Below are positions 714 to 32,798 of a stretch of DNA of 32,977 nucleotides, one piece after another (the first letter of the stretch is position 1; the number at the start of each line of letters is the position of its first letter). Where the stretch lies: positions 1-32,977 of the forward strand of contig JAICME010000017.1 of assembly GCA_025929425.1 (NCBI GenBank). Direction: 5' to 3'. Position numbers and translations under genes: made by a program. Under the pieces are notes generated by a model that was not told the origin of the DNA, searched no databases, and saw only the letters and a list, made by a program, of their open reading frames with translations. Source of the DNA: Thermoleophilia bacterium (lineage in GTDB: Bacteria > Actinomycetota > Thermoleophilia > Gaiellales > Gaiellaceae).

Positions 714-1064
714 TCAGTAGCGGTCGAGCTCGACGAGCCGCTCGTCGCTGATGCCGAAGTGGTGCGCGATCTCGTGCAGGACGGTGCGCCGAACCTGACG
801 GCGTAGCAGCTCGGGATTGCCGTGGGTCATCCGCTCGATCGGGCCGCGGTAGATCGTGATCTTGTCCGGTAGCGCTCCCGCGTAGTACGGGCCGCGCCGG
901 TCGAGGGGAACACCCTGGTAGAGGCCGAGCAGCGGCTGGCCGGCAGGAGGCTCGTCCTCGACCGTGACGGCGACGTTCGCCATCACGCCGCGGATGTCGT
1001 CCGGCAGCTCGTCGAGCGCGTCGCTCACGAGCTGGTCGAACGCCGCAGCGCCGTCCTCGATCAC
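714..1064 (-). CDS. Small zincin-type metallopeptidase family protein (DUF1025-like)
   Basis: This 116-residue protein ends with a gluzincin-like motif: H97-E98-I-A-H101, then H-F-G104 and ISDERL. The HExxH provides two zinc ligands and the general base. The size and the HEIAHHFG.SDERL context match the minimal zincin family (PF06262-type), whose physiological substrates are unknown. Upstream, DEPPAGQPLLGLYQG is also typical of that family. The GTG start (1062-1064) overlaps the TGA of the upstream SARP regulator in a GTGA, so the two are probably co-translated. It has no signal peptide and is presumably cytoplasmic. The family call is firm; any proteolytic role in the regulator's pathway is inference from the coupling. 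Confidence 0.85.
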   Translation of the reverse strand: MIEDGAAAFDQLVSDALDELPDDIRGVMANVAVTVEDEPPAGQPLLGLYQGVPLDRRGPYYAGALPDKITIYRGPIERMTHGNPELLRRQVRRTVLHEIAHHFGISDERLVELDRY

Positions 1065-3856
1065 GACTGCGAAGCCTCTATGAAGACGCTTCCCTCGCGT
1101 AGCGCCTCTTCCAGCGGTGCGGCCATGGCCGAATCATGGATCGCGGAGTACTCCTCGCCGAGTCGTTCCTCGACAGAGGCCTTGGCATTCTCGAAGAGAA
1201 CGTGCTCGCTCGGCTGAAGGAGGACGCCGGCGTCGGCGAGCAGGCCGTCCGCGATTCCGGCGAGATGCGCCGCCCGAGCGGCATCGCCTTCGAGCAGCGA
1301 GAGGCGCGCGAACGCCGCGAGCGCATACGCCATGACCTCCTTGAAGCCCAGCTCGAAAGCCCGCGCGACCGCCAGCTCGAGCCACTCCCGCGCCGCCTCG
1401 AGATGGCCGGCATGGAGGTTGTGGCTCCCGAGGTTGTAGGTCGAGATCGCCGCGTTCGGCTTGTGCCTCGACTCGAGCGAGAGCGCTTCCTCGGTCACCT
1501 CGATCGCGCGCTCGTAGTCACCGAGCTGGCCGGCGATGTGACCGAGGTTGCCCAGCACCGTCGCAAGCCGTGCGGGCACGTCGAGCCTGCGGAAGAGATC
1601 CGCACTCTGCTCGAGCAGCGCGCTCGCGTCGTCGAACTCCTCGAGCGCCGCCGCGACCGTGCCCACGTCGCTGAGAAGGCGGGCGATCCAGAGCTCCTCG
1701 TCGAGCTCTCGCGCCATCTCGAGGGCGGCCTCGAAGCGTGTCCGCGCAAGCTCGAAGTCGCTGAGGCGGAAGGCGATGGTCCCGCTGGCCGAGAGTGCCC
1801 GTAGCCGCACCAGGGGAACGGCGTCGGTGGCGTGGGCGAGCGCCTCCTCGAGCCAGCGGCCGCCTTCGCTGAAGTAGCCGCGCACCTCCCAGAACAGCCG
1901 CAGGGAGCTCGCCAGCCGCAGCGCGAGCTCGGGCGTATCCTCGACCGACCAGGCGAGCGCGGCGCGGATGTTGTCGTGCTCGGGCTGGATGCGATCGAGC
2001 CACACTGTCGCGTCTTCGCCCGCCGTTGTCTGCTCCGCCATCGCCTCGGCGAGCTCGGTCAGCCACTCCGCGTGGCGCCGTCGCATCTCGGTCGCGCCGG
2101 CCTCTTCGAGCCGCTCGACCGCGAAATGGCGGACGGTCTCTAGCATGGTGAACCGCGAGTCGCGCCGCCGGAGCAGGTTGTTGTCGACCAGCGCTCCGAG
2201 GCTCTCGACCGGAACGTCGCACACGCGCTCGGCGGCCTCCAGCGTGCAGCCGCCGACGAAGACGCCCAGCCTGGCGAAGGCGCGGCGCTCGTCCTCCGCG
2301 AGGAGGTCGAAGCTCCAGCGAATCGTCGCGGCGAGAGTCCTCTGGCGCGCCGGTGCGTCGCGCGGTCCCGGCGGAAGGAGGTTCGGTTGGCGCGCGAGCC
2401 GCTCGAGGATCTCGCCCGGAGCGAGCAGCTTGGAGCGGGCCGCCGCGAGCTCGATCGCGAGCGGTAGCCCGTCGAGGCGGGCACAGACCCGGGCGACCTC
2501 GGGAGCGCTATCCCCGTCGAGCGCGAATCCCGGATCGACCGCGCGCGCTCTCGCCGCGAAGAGCCGCAGCGCGTCCGTCTTGACGAGTGACTCGAACGGC
2601 AGGCCGGCGTCGGGGGTGTCGAACGGCGGAACCGGATATTCGTGCTCGGCCGCCAGCCGGAGTGGCGCGCGGCTCGTCGCCACGACCCACAGGCGTGGAG
2701 CGGCAGCGAGCAGCTCGCCGACGAACGGCGCCGCGCCGAGGAGCTGCTCGAAGTTGTCCAGCACGACCAGCATCCGCCGCTCGCACAGGTGCTCGGTCAC
2801 GCCGGCGGCGAGCGAACGGGTGCCCTCCTTCACATCGAGTGCCTCGGCAATGGTCGGCACGAGCAGCTCCGGGTCCGAGACCGGCGCGAGGCCGACGAAC
2901 ACGGCCCCGTCCCGTAGCTCCGGCTCGAGCGCCTCCGCGAGCGCGAGCGCGAGGCGCGTCTTTCCCGTCCCGCCCGGCCCGGTGAGGGTCACGAGACGCG
3001 CGTTCTCGTCCCGGAACAGCGCGCTGACGGCGGCGAGTTCGAGCCGGCGTCCGAGGAGCGGCGTGGGAGGGACCGGCAGCGGCCTTGTGGATCGGGTCGG
3101 CCCGGCGGGGGCTGCGAGGCTCGGCTCCTGTCTGAGGATCGACCGCTCCAGCTCCTGCAGGGCCGGGCTCGGCTCGAGCCCCAGCTCGTCGGCGAGGGTG
3201 CGGCGCGCATTGCGGTAGACCTCGAGCGCCTCCGCCTGGCGGCCGCAGCGGTAGAGGGCGAGAAGCCGCTGCTGGAGGAACCGCTCGCAGTAGGGATGCT
3301 CGGCCGTGAGCGCTTCGAGCTCCGCGACGACGGCGTCGTGGCGGCCGGACGCGAGCTCGGCATCGAGCCGGAGCTCGAGTGCGGTCAGGCGGAGCTCTTC
3401 GAGCCGTTCTGCCTCCGCGCCGCGCCGTGTCTGTTCCGGCAGGTCGGCGAGCGCGGGGCCGCGCCAGATCGCGAGTGCGCCCCGCAGCTCGTCGGTGGCG
3501 TCGTCGAAGCGGCCGGCCTCGAGATCCGCTCGTCCGCGCTCGAGTGCGCGCTCGAAACGGTCGAGGTCGAGCTCTTCGTCGCCGACGACTGCGCGGTATC
3601 CGCGCCCTGACGTCTCGATGCGCTCGCTCCCGAGGACTTTTCGCAGCCCGTGCACGTAGACCTGCAGCGACTGGACCGCGGATGCCGGCGGATCCTCACC
3701 CCAGAGCCCATCGATCAGCTGGTCGGCCGAGACGACGCGTCTCCGGTTGACGAGCAGCAGGGCGAGCAGCGCCCGCTGCTTCGGCGCGCCGAGTGCCGCC
3801 CGACCATCGTCGATGAGGGCCTCGATCGGCCCCAGGATGCGGAACTGCGCCGACAA
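1061..3856 (-). CDS. SARP/AfsR-type transcriptional regulator with BTAD, NB-ARC-like ATPase and C-terminal repeats
   Basis: This 931-residue regulator starts with an OmpR-type winged helix (about 1-75; FRILGPIEA, GAPKQRALLALLL, LIDGLWG). A BTAD domain follows (about 85-240; RGYRAVV, LEVYRNARRTLADELGLEPSP). Next comes a STAND/NB-ARC ATPase with P-loop GPGGTGKT at 293-300, Walker B VVLDNFEQ near 360 and a [16 protein letters not shown] motif. The rest (about 600-900) is Ala/Leu-rich helical repeats resembling TPRs. This is the AfsR architecture, in which a ligand or phosphorylation signal controls DNA binding. The start is TTG 3854-3856, with GAGGAGG about 10 bp upstream. Heptamer repeats lie directly upstream and may be its own operator. 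A small metallopeptidase gene is coupled at its 3' end. Confidence 0.93.
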   Translation of the reverse strand: MSAQFRILGPIEALIDDGRAALGAPKQRALLALLLVNRRRVVSADQLIDGLWGEDPPASAVQSLQVYVHGLRKVLGSERIETSGRGYRAVVGDEELDLDRFERALERGRADLEAGRFDDATDELRGALAIWRGPALADLPEQTRRGAEAERLEELRLTALELRLDAELASGRHDAVVAELEALTAEHPYCERFLQQRLLALYRCGRQAEALEVYRNARRTLADELGLEPSPALQELERSILRQEPSLAAPAGPTRSTRPLPVPPTPLLGRRLELAAVSALFRDENARLVTLTGPGGTGKTRLALALAEALEPELRDGAVFVGLAPVSDPELLVPTIAEALDVKEGTRSLAAGVTEHLCERRMLVVLDNFEQLLGAAPFVGELLAAAPRLWVVATSRAPLRLAAEHEYPVPPFDTPDAGLPFESLVKTDALRLFAARARAVDPGFALDGDSAPEVARVCARLDGLPLAIELAAARSKLLAPGEILERLARQPNLLPPGPRDAPARQRTLAATIRWSFDLLAEDERRAFARLGVFVGGCTLEAAERVCDVPVESLGALVDNNLLRRRDSRFTMLETVRHFAVERLEEAGATEMRRRHAEWLTELAEAMAEQTTAGEDATVWLDRIQPEHDNIRAALAWSVEDTPELALRLASSLRLFWEVRGYFSEGGRWLEEALAHATDAVPLVRLRALSASGTIAFRLSDFELARTRFEAALEMARELDEELWIARLLSDVGTVAAALEEFDDASALLEQSADLFRRLDVPARLATVLGNLGHIAGQLGDYERAIEVTEEALSLESRHKPNAAISTYNLGSHNLHAGHLEAAREWLELAVARAFELGFKEVMAYALAAFARLSLLEGDAARAAHLAGIADGLLADAGVLLQPSEHVLFENAKASVEERLGEEYSAIHDSAMAAPLEEALREGSVFIEASQS

Positions 3857-3857
3857 C

Positions 3858-3887
3858 CCTTAAGTCCTCCTCAAGCGGATCTTAAGC
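3858..3887. promoter_or_regulatory. Candidate SARP operator: three heptamer direct repeats, 11-bp period
   Basis: On the minus strand the sequence reads GCTTAAG, 4 bp, GCTTGAG, 4 bp, ACTTAAG (plus-strand cores at 3859-3864, 3870-3875 and 3881-3886). Known SARP sites are direct heptamer repeats separated by 4 bp, placing each on the same face of the helix. This site sits in the 90-bp divergent gap between the SARP gene and the cupin operon. It overlaps the regulator's Shine-Dalgarno region. Binding by the neighbouring regulator is inference. Confidence 0.65.
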
Positions 3888-3946
3888 GCCGTCTCCGACG
3901 CTGCCTTCGACAGCCGCCGGCAACGGCCAACCGAGAAGGAGGCAGC

Positions 3947-4528
3947 ATGATCCGCGCAGGAGATTCGATCGAGAACCCGGTCACCGGCGAGCGCATCGTC
4001 TTCCGGCAGACGAGCCGCGAGACGAACGGCGCAGCCGTCGTGATCGAGACCTACGTCCAGCCGAACGGCTTCGTTGCCGCGGCGCACGTGCATCCGAGCC
4101 AGGAGGAGCGTTTCGAGGTGCTTCGTGGCACGGTCGGCTTCAGGTTCGGACGGCAGAAGCTCGTGGCCGGGCCCGGCAAGCGCCTCACTGTCCCGGCGGG
4201 AACGCCGCACAAGTTCTGGAACGCCGGGGACAAGGTCGCGCACTTCGTCTGCGAGATCCGGCCCGCGCTGCAGTTCGAGTCGCTGATCGAGACGATGTTC
4301 AACCTCGCGGCCGACGGTCGCACGAACCGCAAGGGCATGCCGAATCCGCTGCAGCTCGCGGTGATCGCGCAGGCGCATTTCGGCACCGTTCGCCTCCCGT
4401 TCCCGCCGGCCGTCGTGCAGCGGATCGGCCTCGCCCTCGGCAGCTCGCTCGGCCGCGTGCTCGGCTACGAGCCCGTCTATGTCCCCTCGGCGACGCCGCT
4501 CGGCGCGCCCGCCGCGACCGCAGCCTGA
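3947..4528 (+). CDS. Cupin-domain protein
   Basis: The start is ATG 3947, preceded by an excellent GAAGGAGG Shine-Dalgarno at about 3935-3942. The frame is open further upstream, but that stretch crosses the divergent regulatory region and lies antisense to the regulator's 5' end. The 193-residue product has a single conserved cupin barrel. It contains AAHVHPSQEERFEVLRGTVGFRFG (motif 1, with the H-x-H and Glu metal ligands) and PAGTPHKFWNAGD (motif 2). A C-terminal part of about 80 residues (from about 115) is mostly helical. Cupins include enzymes and small-molecule sensors, so the reaction cannot be named. It is the first gene of a coupled trio, read divergently from the SARP regulator and probably controlled by it. 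Confidence 0.88.
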   Translation: MIRAGDSIENPVTGERIVFRQTSRETNGAAVVIETYVQPNGFVAAAHVHPSQEERFEVLRGTVGFRFGRQKLVAGPGKRLTVPAGTPHKFWNAGDKVAHFVCEIRPALQFESLIETMFNLAADGRTNRKGMPNPLQLAVIAQAHFGTVRLPFPPAVVQRIGLALGSSLGRVLGYEPVYVPSATPLGAPAATAA

Positions 4529-30351: not shown

Positions 30352-32798
30352 TTCGGTCCGCCGAGGGCGAGCTCGACAGCCTCCTCGAACGGAAGCTCGA
30401 GCCCACGCGCGCGTGCCGCCTCGGCGTCCGACCCGAGGGCGAGGCGCGCAGGGGAGAGGTATCGCTCCAGCAGCCTGTCCCAGAAAGCGACGTGGAGGTC
30501 GGTGCCGAGCGACCGCCAGAGCCGTTCGACGGCGGCCGCCAGCTCGAGCGATCGGGCCGAATCGCCCTGTCCCGCGATCGCCATCGCAAGTCCCTGCACC
30601 TCGACGCTGGCTTCGAAGACATCGCCGAGGGCGAGCGCGGCGCGGAGGCTTTCCCGGTACCGCTCTTCGGCCTGCGCGCAGTCACCGCGAATCAGGGAGC
30701 AGTCGGCGAGAAAGTGAATCGCAAAGTGTGTCGTCCGCAGGTCGTCCTTCCCGAGCTCGAGGAGCTCGTGGGCAAGCGATTCGGCACGAGGGTCATCGAT
30801 GGCGACCAGCACCTGGCACACCCCCACGAGCGCTCGGGTCTCGCCCGGCCGGTCGCCGAGAGCCTGCCGGATCGACCGCGCCTGCTCGAACGCCGCAAGC
30901 GCGGCCGAGTCGTCGCCGGCGTCGTAGACGAGGAGCCAGCCGGACGCTTCCAGAGCGCCCGCGGTTTCCGCCTGGTCGTCCAGCGCGATCCAGCCGGCGA
31001 TCGCCTCTTCGAGACGCTGCCGCCCCTCGTCGACTCTCCCGCTTCGCGCAGCCAGAGCGCCGAACGCCGTCAGCGCTCTCGCCCTCACTCGACCGCCGGC
31101 CGTCGATGCCTTCAGCGCCGCCCGCAACCGCGTGTCGCCTTCGGCGAGATGGCCGTGCGTCAGCCAGAACCACCCGAGTGAGCCGGCGAGCTTCAGCGCC
31201 TCGTCGGGAGCGGTCCTCGTGAGCCGGTCGAGCGCCGCCCGGAGGTCGTCGTGGTTGCGATCGAGCCGGGACGACGCTTCCGCCTCGTCCTCGTGGCGAA
31301 GGGCGTAGGCCGTCTCGGCAAGCCGTGCAAATTCCGCCGCATGACGCGCGCGCACCGCTTCCTCCTCGCCGGAGGAGGTCAGCCGCTCGCGCGCGAATTC
31401 GCGCACGGTCTCGAGCAGCAACAGGCGATCGTCACCGACCTGCTTCAGGAGGCTGAGCTCGAGCAGCGCGGACAGCCCGCCCAGGGTCGCCTCGCAGACC
31501 GCCTCGGCCGCCTCGACCCGGAAGCCTCCGGCGAACACACCGAGTCGCGCGAGCAGCTGTCGACCGTCGGCATCGAGGAGGTCGAAGCTCCACTCGATGG
31601 TCGCGCGCAGCGTGCGCTGGCGCTCCGGGGCGTCGCGGGCACCGTCTGTTAGGAGCGGCAGGGCCTGCTCGAGGCGTTCGAGCAGTGCTTCAGGCGAGAG
31701 GAGCCGGGTGCGCGCGGCGGCGAGCTCGATCGCGAGTGGCAGCCTGTCGAGTCTCGCGCAGACCGCTCCCACCGTTGCGTCCGGTTCGAGCTCGCCGCCG
31801 CCTGCCGCCCGGGCGCGCTCGACGAAGAGGTCGGCCGCGTCGGTCGGGCTCAACGGCTCGAGCGAATACTCGAGCTCGCCGGCGATGCGCAACGGCGCCC
31901 GGCTCGTCACGAGGACACGCAGGCCCGCGGCGGCCGCGAGTAGCTCGGCGATCCGCGGAGCGGCAGCGAGGACATGCTCGAAGTTGTCGAGTAGGAGCAG
32001 GAGCTCGCGGCCGTGGAGGAAACCGCCCAGGTCGTCGGGCGCACCGACCGCGTGCGCAATCTCGCTGTCCACGAGGTCGGGGTCGGAGAGCGGGGCCAGC
32101 GGAACCCAGAACACACCATCCGAAGCCACGCCGACCAGCTCGGCGGCAACCTGAAGCGCGAGTCGGGTCTTGCCTGCCCCGCCCGGCCCGGTGATCGTGA
32201 TGAGCCGCCGGTCTCCCAGCAGCTCGACGAGCTCGGCCTCCTCCCGTTCCCGGCCGAGGAGCCGGCCGGGGGCGACCGGCAGGTTCGTCGTGTCGAGTGT
32301 CCGGAGCGGAGGAAACGTCTGCTCTCCGAGCTGGAAGATGCGCTCGGGTGCGCCCATGTCCTTCAGCCAGTGCTCGCCAAGATCGCGTAATTCGCTGCGG
32401 TTTACGAGAGCCGCCGTCGCCGTCGAGACCAGCACCTGCCCTCCGTGGCCGGCAGCGGCTATCCGGGCCGCACGATGGACGTCAAAGCCTGCGTAGCCCT
32501 CGTCGGTGAGCCGGGGAGTCCCGGTGTGAAGACCCATGCGCACCGGCAGGTCGAGCCCAGCCTGGGCCTCGCGGGCGGCGGCCAGCGCGGCGGGGGCAGT
32601 CGGGAAGGCGATGAAGAACGCGTCTCCCTGCGTGTCGACCTCGATGCCGCCGTGGCGCTCGAACGCTCCCCGCAGTACCCGGCGGTGCTCGGCGAGGCGC
32701 TCCGCGTAGTCCTCCACACCGAGGTCGTCGAGGAGCCGTGTCGAGCCCTCGATGTCCGTGAACAGGAAGGTGACCGTGCCTACGGGTAGATCGCGCAT
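30348..32798 (-). CDS. Class III adenylate cyclase domain fused to AfsR-like ATPase and repeats
   Basis: From ATG 32798 the product is 816 residues, starting with the family-typical [23 protein letters not shown] 32810 is an alternative. Longer starts would cross the divergent ssrA promoter and RNA. The cyclase homology domain (1-140) keeps both metal Asp residues (Asp15, Asp59 in GDAFF) and Arg112. The usual transition-state Asn is His108 (FDVHRAARI). A STAND ATPase follows, with P-loop GPGGAGKT at 204-211, [11 protein letters not shown] and [11 protein letters not shown]. Helical repeats run to the end. Its ATPase core resembles that of the SARP regulator at 1061-3856. It lies between smpB and ssrA, on the opposite strand. 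Confidence 0.9.

Follow-up and report, generated by a model that had tools for sequence, protein, structure and literature searches.

A three-heptamer array as the predicted operator of a large AfsR-type SARP at a divergent cupin operon in a Thermoleophilia bacterium

SARPs have been studied almost exclusively as antibiotic switches of Streptomyces. In the AfsR complex at the afsS promoter of Streptomyces coelicolor, two protomers are placed on 11-bp repeats, with the upstream repeat overlapping the −35 element TTCAGC (−38 to −33), sigma region 4 lying atop the protomers and a weak −10 element, CACTGT (PMC10936776). The operator of PimR, located in the pimM–pimR intergenic region of Streptomyces natalensis, consists of three heptamers with 4-bp spacers (PMC5930380), while EmbR of Mycobacterium tuberculosis is a SARP-type regulator of non-antibiotic function (PMC9239209; PDB 2fez).

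Within the window (the whole stretch of 32,977 nucleotides that was analysed), a first-pass annotation had described three heptamers with 4-bp spacers and an 11-bp period, adjoining a SARP gene and upstream of a cupin operon. Both the direct reading at 3859–3887 and the gene positions bear this out (Table 1). Read on the minus strand, the heptamers are GCTTAAG (3887–3881), GCTTGAG (3876–3870) and ACTTAAG (3865–3859), separated by N4 with a period of exactly 11, and thus have the form of heptameric direct repeats with an 11-bp period that characterises SARP operators. As CTTAAG is palindromic, the two outer repeats cannot by themselves be assigned to a strand. A consensus search of the window returned this array as the sole match. 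The array is real, its interpretation as a SARP operator is supported by the sequence comparisons described below, and it belongs to a known kind of operator, of which the instance at the cupin operon is a new member.

Table 1. Coordinates of the array, the promoter and ribosome-binding elements, and the adjacent genes in the window
Feature	Position	Strand	Basis
Distal repeat CTTAAGT (ACTTAAG on the minus strand)	3859–3865	+	Direct reading; gap alignment
Middle repeat CTCAAGC	3870–3876	+	Direct reading; gap alignment
Promoter-proximal repeat CTTAAGC	3881–3887	+	Direct reading; TAAG invariant in 12/12 gaps
Predicted weak −10 GACGCT (consensus GANNNT) of the cupin operon	3897–3902	+	CGANNNT in 12/12 gaps
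Predicted −10 TAAGAT of the SARP gene, inside the proximal repeat	3879–3884	−	Conserved AT; putative function
Large AfsR-type SARP, 931 aa (winged helix, BTAD, ATPase, TPR)	1061–3856	−	Domain and AfsR matches
Zincin_1 metallopeptidase-like protein	714–1064	−	Overlaps SARP stop; kept behind SARP in relatives
Cupin protein, 193 aa, predicted target	3947–4528	+	Cupin_2, E = 1.8e-12
Small single-span membrane protein, 46 aa	4528–4668	+	Overlaps cupin stop (TGATG)
Multi-span membrane protein, 207 aa	4665–5288	+	Overlaps 46-aa gene (GTGA)
Shine-Dalgarno AAGGAGG of the cupin gene	3936–3942	+	Direct reading
Shine-Dalgarno AGGAGG of the SARP gene, within the array	3866–3871	−	Not conserved in relatives

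In the 2.7-Mb bin (G000) the triple was present in two places, namely the array of the window and C150:9268–9295 (L009). C150 carries ATP synthase genes, zincin, SARP and cupin in the order found in the window, at 78–88% DNA identity. A paralogous origin of this copy was rejected on account of this gene order and identity, which indicate the same locus in a second, co-binned population. It should be noted that the bin mixes two related populations.

The SARP gene begins with a TTG start at 3856 on the minus strand. Profile matches showed a winged helix (Trans_reg_C, 5.9e-12) followed by a BTAD (4.3e-47), with AAA_22, AAA_16 and TPR_12 also matched for the ATPase (NOD) and TPR part, and phmmer matched the protein to the structures of AfsR and EmbR. 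It could be aligned with AfsR (8k60) over residues 4–817 (E 6.5e-51). However, it scored 228 bits against a cut-off of 1430 for the AfsR equivalog NCBIfam NF053617, and is thus a relative of AfsR and not AfsR itself. Residues W74, P79, R94 and K95 of AfsR are kept as W52, P57, R72 and K73, whereas the positions of its base-reading residues T88 and R92 are taken by V66 and G70, so the base contacts must differ in detail from those of AfsR. EmbR shares the SARP-type winged helix and BTAD and is by sequence the best PDB match of the domain, but carries an FHA domain in place of the ATPase-TPR part found here.

The Zincin_1 gene also trails the SARP gene in C150 and L039, and the two possibly form one operon. 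In the orthologous SARP frame of L019 (G070:C73) the conserved N-terminus is immediately preceded by a stop, and none of the starts ATG, GTG and TTG is present there; either the start codon is unusual or the sequence is in error. Elsewhere in the window, the DNA at 31380–32208 resembles a portion of the relatives' SARP genes (∼63–66% identity); as a BTAD was not detected in this segment, it perhaps represents a related ATPase regulator. On the cupin side, the 207-aa multi-span protein had no match in Pfam. The 46-aa product had been annotated as a lipoprotein, an identity which was rejected as its Cys is replaced by Ser or Ala in relatives, and the product is more aptly described as a small membrane protein with a single span.

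Orthologous loci were sought in 103 genomes of the family using the in-frame cupin protein as query. Together with earlier matches, this yielded 12 distinct SARP–cupin gaps, which represent at least six genera and whose SARP domains are 52–100% identical; these gaps are related sequences and not independent trials. Aligned on the array, all 12 contain three YAAG repeats in plus orientation with an 11-bp period and a consensus of CKYAAGC, with AA invariant in 36/36 repeats and G present in 33. The first-pass annotation had proposed the repeat spacing in orthologous gaps of related genomes as a check of its reading, and in each of the 12 the spacing is conserved. On the cupin side, CGANNNT lies exactly 9 nt past the last TAAG in 12/12 gaps, and the cupin ATG is 50–71 nt from the proximal repeat. 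The CTTAAG units are short and partly palindromic, and might be ascribed to chance or to a mutational tandem duplication without function. However, the consensus triple gave 0 matches in 100 dinucleotide shuffles of the window, the array is kept where SARP domains are only 52% identical and the flanks have turned over, and a period of 11 is prominent in 101 other gaps (see below). A chance origin is thus left with practically no probability and is considered refuted.

The arrangement of the array relative to the predicted cupin promoter resembles that at afsS. The 3′ repeat of a SARP operator lies ∼8 bp from the target −10, over the −35 region; here the predicted −10, GACGCT, begins 9 bp after the heptamer at 3881–3887. 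The TTAAGC of this proximal repeat aligns with the afsS TTCAGC at −38 to −33, and the spacing between the proximal repeat and the weak GACGCT is that between the downstream afs repeat and its own weak −10, CACTGT, the latter being placed at an assumed standard −12 to −7. On the basis of this alignment and spacing, activation along the plus strand, towards the cupin gene, is the best reading. The locus differs from afsS in having three repeats instead of two, and a divergent cupin/membrane operon as target. The PimR operator offers a second parallel, with the CAAG core of its CGGCAAG matching the YAAG seen here, and PimR-related operators likewise lie between a SARP gene and a single target gene. 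However, PimR, a SARP-LAL, serves polyene biosynthesis, and its operator is clear of the −35 and accompanied by a second one with a 10-bp period.

The array also lies close to the SARP gene, at a distance from its start which varies between 2 and 30 nt among the gaps. The array had been said to cover the Shine-Dalgarno of this gene, and this is so in the window (AGGAGG, 3871–3866), but given the variable distance the overlap is not a conserved feature. This proximity, together with a conserved TANNNT facing the SARP gene (A at 3879 in 12/12 and T at 3880 in 11/12 gaps, at the proximal repeat only), could suggest that the array acts solely on the SARP gene, as a site of self-activation or self-repression, and plays no part at the cupin promoter. 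Such an exclusive role seems improbable, as the CGANNNT at fixed distance sits on the cupin side in every gap whereas the SARP-side distance varies, the repeat orientation matching afsS points at the cupin gene, and activation of the SARP gene would need a −10 within the SARP coding sequence. Self-repression alongside activation of the cupin operon is nevertheless plausible, since the likely −10 of the SARP gene (TAAGAT) sits inside the array; its basis is this overlap and the AT conserved beside one repeat.

To score the gaps, a template of 16 positions was used. All 12 cupin genes with a divergent SARP scored 15–16 of 16, while the 16 cupin homologues that have no SARP beside them all scored 8–11, with the repeats and CGANNNT both absent. 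None of 20,000 shuffles of the window gap scored above 14. With one mismatch allowed, 16 sites were found in the 103 family genomes in comparison to one for a reversed control, and 13 of these 16 adjoin a SARP gene. Within the bin, the two known sites are the only perfect matches and weaker matches are no commoner than in the control, which suggests that at template stringency the regulon of this SARP is one target. In L153, a SARP of the same subfamily (helix LQVYVHGLR) has an unrelated, non-cupin target and both the repeats and the −10 are kept; the element therefore goes with the regulator rather than with the cupin gene. It was also observed that cupin genes without an adjacent SARP (L022–L037, L130 and L146) share another element, ∼GCCGACGAWW, ∼55–75 bp before the start codon, possibly for another regulator or sigma factor.

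These distributions bear on whether the array binds another winged-helix regulator, for example one of the OmpR/PhoB type such as PhoP, with the SARP gene adjacent only incidentally. PhoP of M. tuberculosis binds 7-bp direct repeats with a 4-bp spacer (PMC4832192), and the PhoP and AfsR sites of Streptomyces overlap at afsS (PMC10972967). A site of this type would be expected at many genes of the genome irrespective of SARPs, whereas the array is present exactly when a SARP is adjacent and is missing from the 16 cupin promoters without one. The near lack of further sites, with only two perfect ones in the bin, is also unlike a global response regulator, and operators differ between SARPs and track the recognition helix (see below). 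Binding by such a regulator is likewise very improbable. Very probably, the large AfsR-type SARP encoded next to the array uses it as its operator, activating the divergent cupin operon.

Arrays beside other regulators were analysed in a sample of 113 BTAD genes of the order, 101 of them non-orthologous, by scanning the upstream 150 bp for periods of 7 to 24. A period-11 triple scoring at least 15 of 21 was detected at 41 of the 101 non-orthologous genes, compared to 1–10 at any other period. The operators were aligned by an expectation-maximisation fit blind to the protein data; for L150 and L151 (orthologous) and L157 the automatic period search was off-register and the register was set by hand from the gap alignment. 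A possible −10 at the same offset as in the cupin gaps also occurs in non-orthologous arrays, with NANNNT 11 nt after operator position 6 in 15/38 and one repeat further in 9/38, against a mean of 1.9% at other offsets. In the N66 helix group a fourth repeat is present in degenerate form, which accounts for the −10 of this group being one repeat further (offset 22). The excess recurred in a second, separate sample of 78 BTAD genes, drawn for the most part from other actinobacteria and from Chloroflexi, of which 17 scored at least 16 at period 11 and 0–5 did so at other periods. Among the BTAD genes of other actinobacteria, upstream 11-bp arrays of other heptamers (GAAACTC, GAAAGCG and CCAAGG types) were seen in Nonomuraea (L058, L066, L073, L091), L093/L100/L111 and Geodermatophilus (L112, L115), the heptamers being consistent within a lineage.

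A strongly hydrophobic N-terminus is encoded by 11 of the 18 array-divergent genes with a near start and ribosome site, and array-divergent genes include those for a protein kinase, an MFS transporter and DMFA2_C-type proteins; no match to antibiotic biosynthesis families was found among those scanned. It had been remarked that the target at the present locus is not an antibiotic cluster, which agrees with its cupin and membrane-protein genes, and that this would be an unusual job for a SARP. The latter is valid against Streptomyces, but within the order such exported-protein, transporter and kinase neighbours seem usual, and to be placed beside them appears to be the normal job of its SARPs. 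Among the papers available to the literature search, none linked SARPs with Gaiella or Gaiellales.

Comparison of 49 regulator/operator pairs showed that operator similarity tracks helix similarity once similarity elsewhere in the domain is corrected for (partial Mantel r 0.28, p 5e-4). Of the pairs with K62, 11/12 have C at operator position 6, compared to 1/37 of those lacking K, and T at operator position 2 is similarly associated with Y67 (21/24, against 3/25 without Y67); among the orthologues, Y67 is found with CTTAAG and A67 with CGTAAG. On a tree built from the remainder of the domain, K62 and Y67 change repeatedly, with 8 and 11 parsimony steps, respectively, which argues against a single-clade effect, although the alignment is short and kinship is only partly removed. 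As operator letters co-vary with the helix in this way (K62/C6, Y67/T2), a SARP recognition code becomes testable.

A switch of the following kind is proposed. Two or three SARP protomers would bind next to one another on the three 11-bp repeats and keep sigma region 4 in position over a promoter lacking a −35 and having only the weak −10 GACGCT at 3897–3902. This would switch on the operon of the cupin, the small membrane protein and the membrane protein, with a start predicted near 3909, both this start and the two −10 elements being predicted from conservation. The bound SARP, or polymerase at the cupin promoter, would cover the predicted −10 of the SARP gene (TAAGAT, 3884–3879), so that SARP expression is probably limited by this very binding. 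As in AfsR, ATP and a signal are expected to control the switch by way of the ATPase and TPR part.

More broadly, the evidence leans modestly towards the AfsR-type SARPs of Thermoleophilia having radiated into local switches, each with its own diversified 11-bp array activating a divergent gene, often for an exported protein, with a readable code (K62/C6, Y67/T2) and mutually exclusive regulator and target promoters. At the present locus, the promoter architecture known from the antibiotic switches is kept across a soil lineage for non-antibiotic targets. As each regulator adjoins its own operator, regulator/operator pairs can be read in bulk, and these pairs predict targets of uncharacterised regulators and give testable hypotheses relating helix residues to bases. 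Such recognition hypotheses would aid in predicting or redirecting SARP control of silent gene clusters, and the wider value lies in an array and its regulator being readable in dozens of natural variants.
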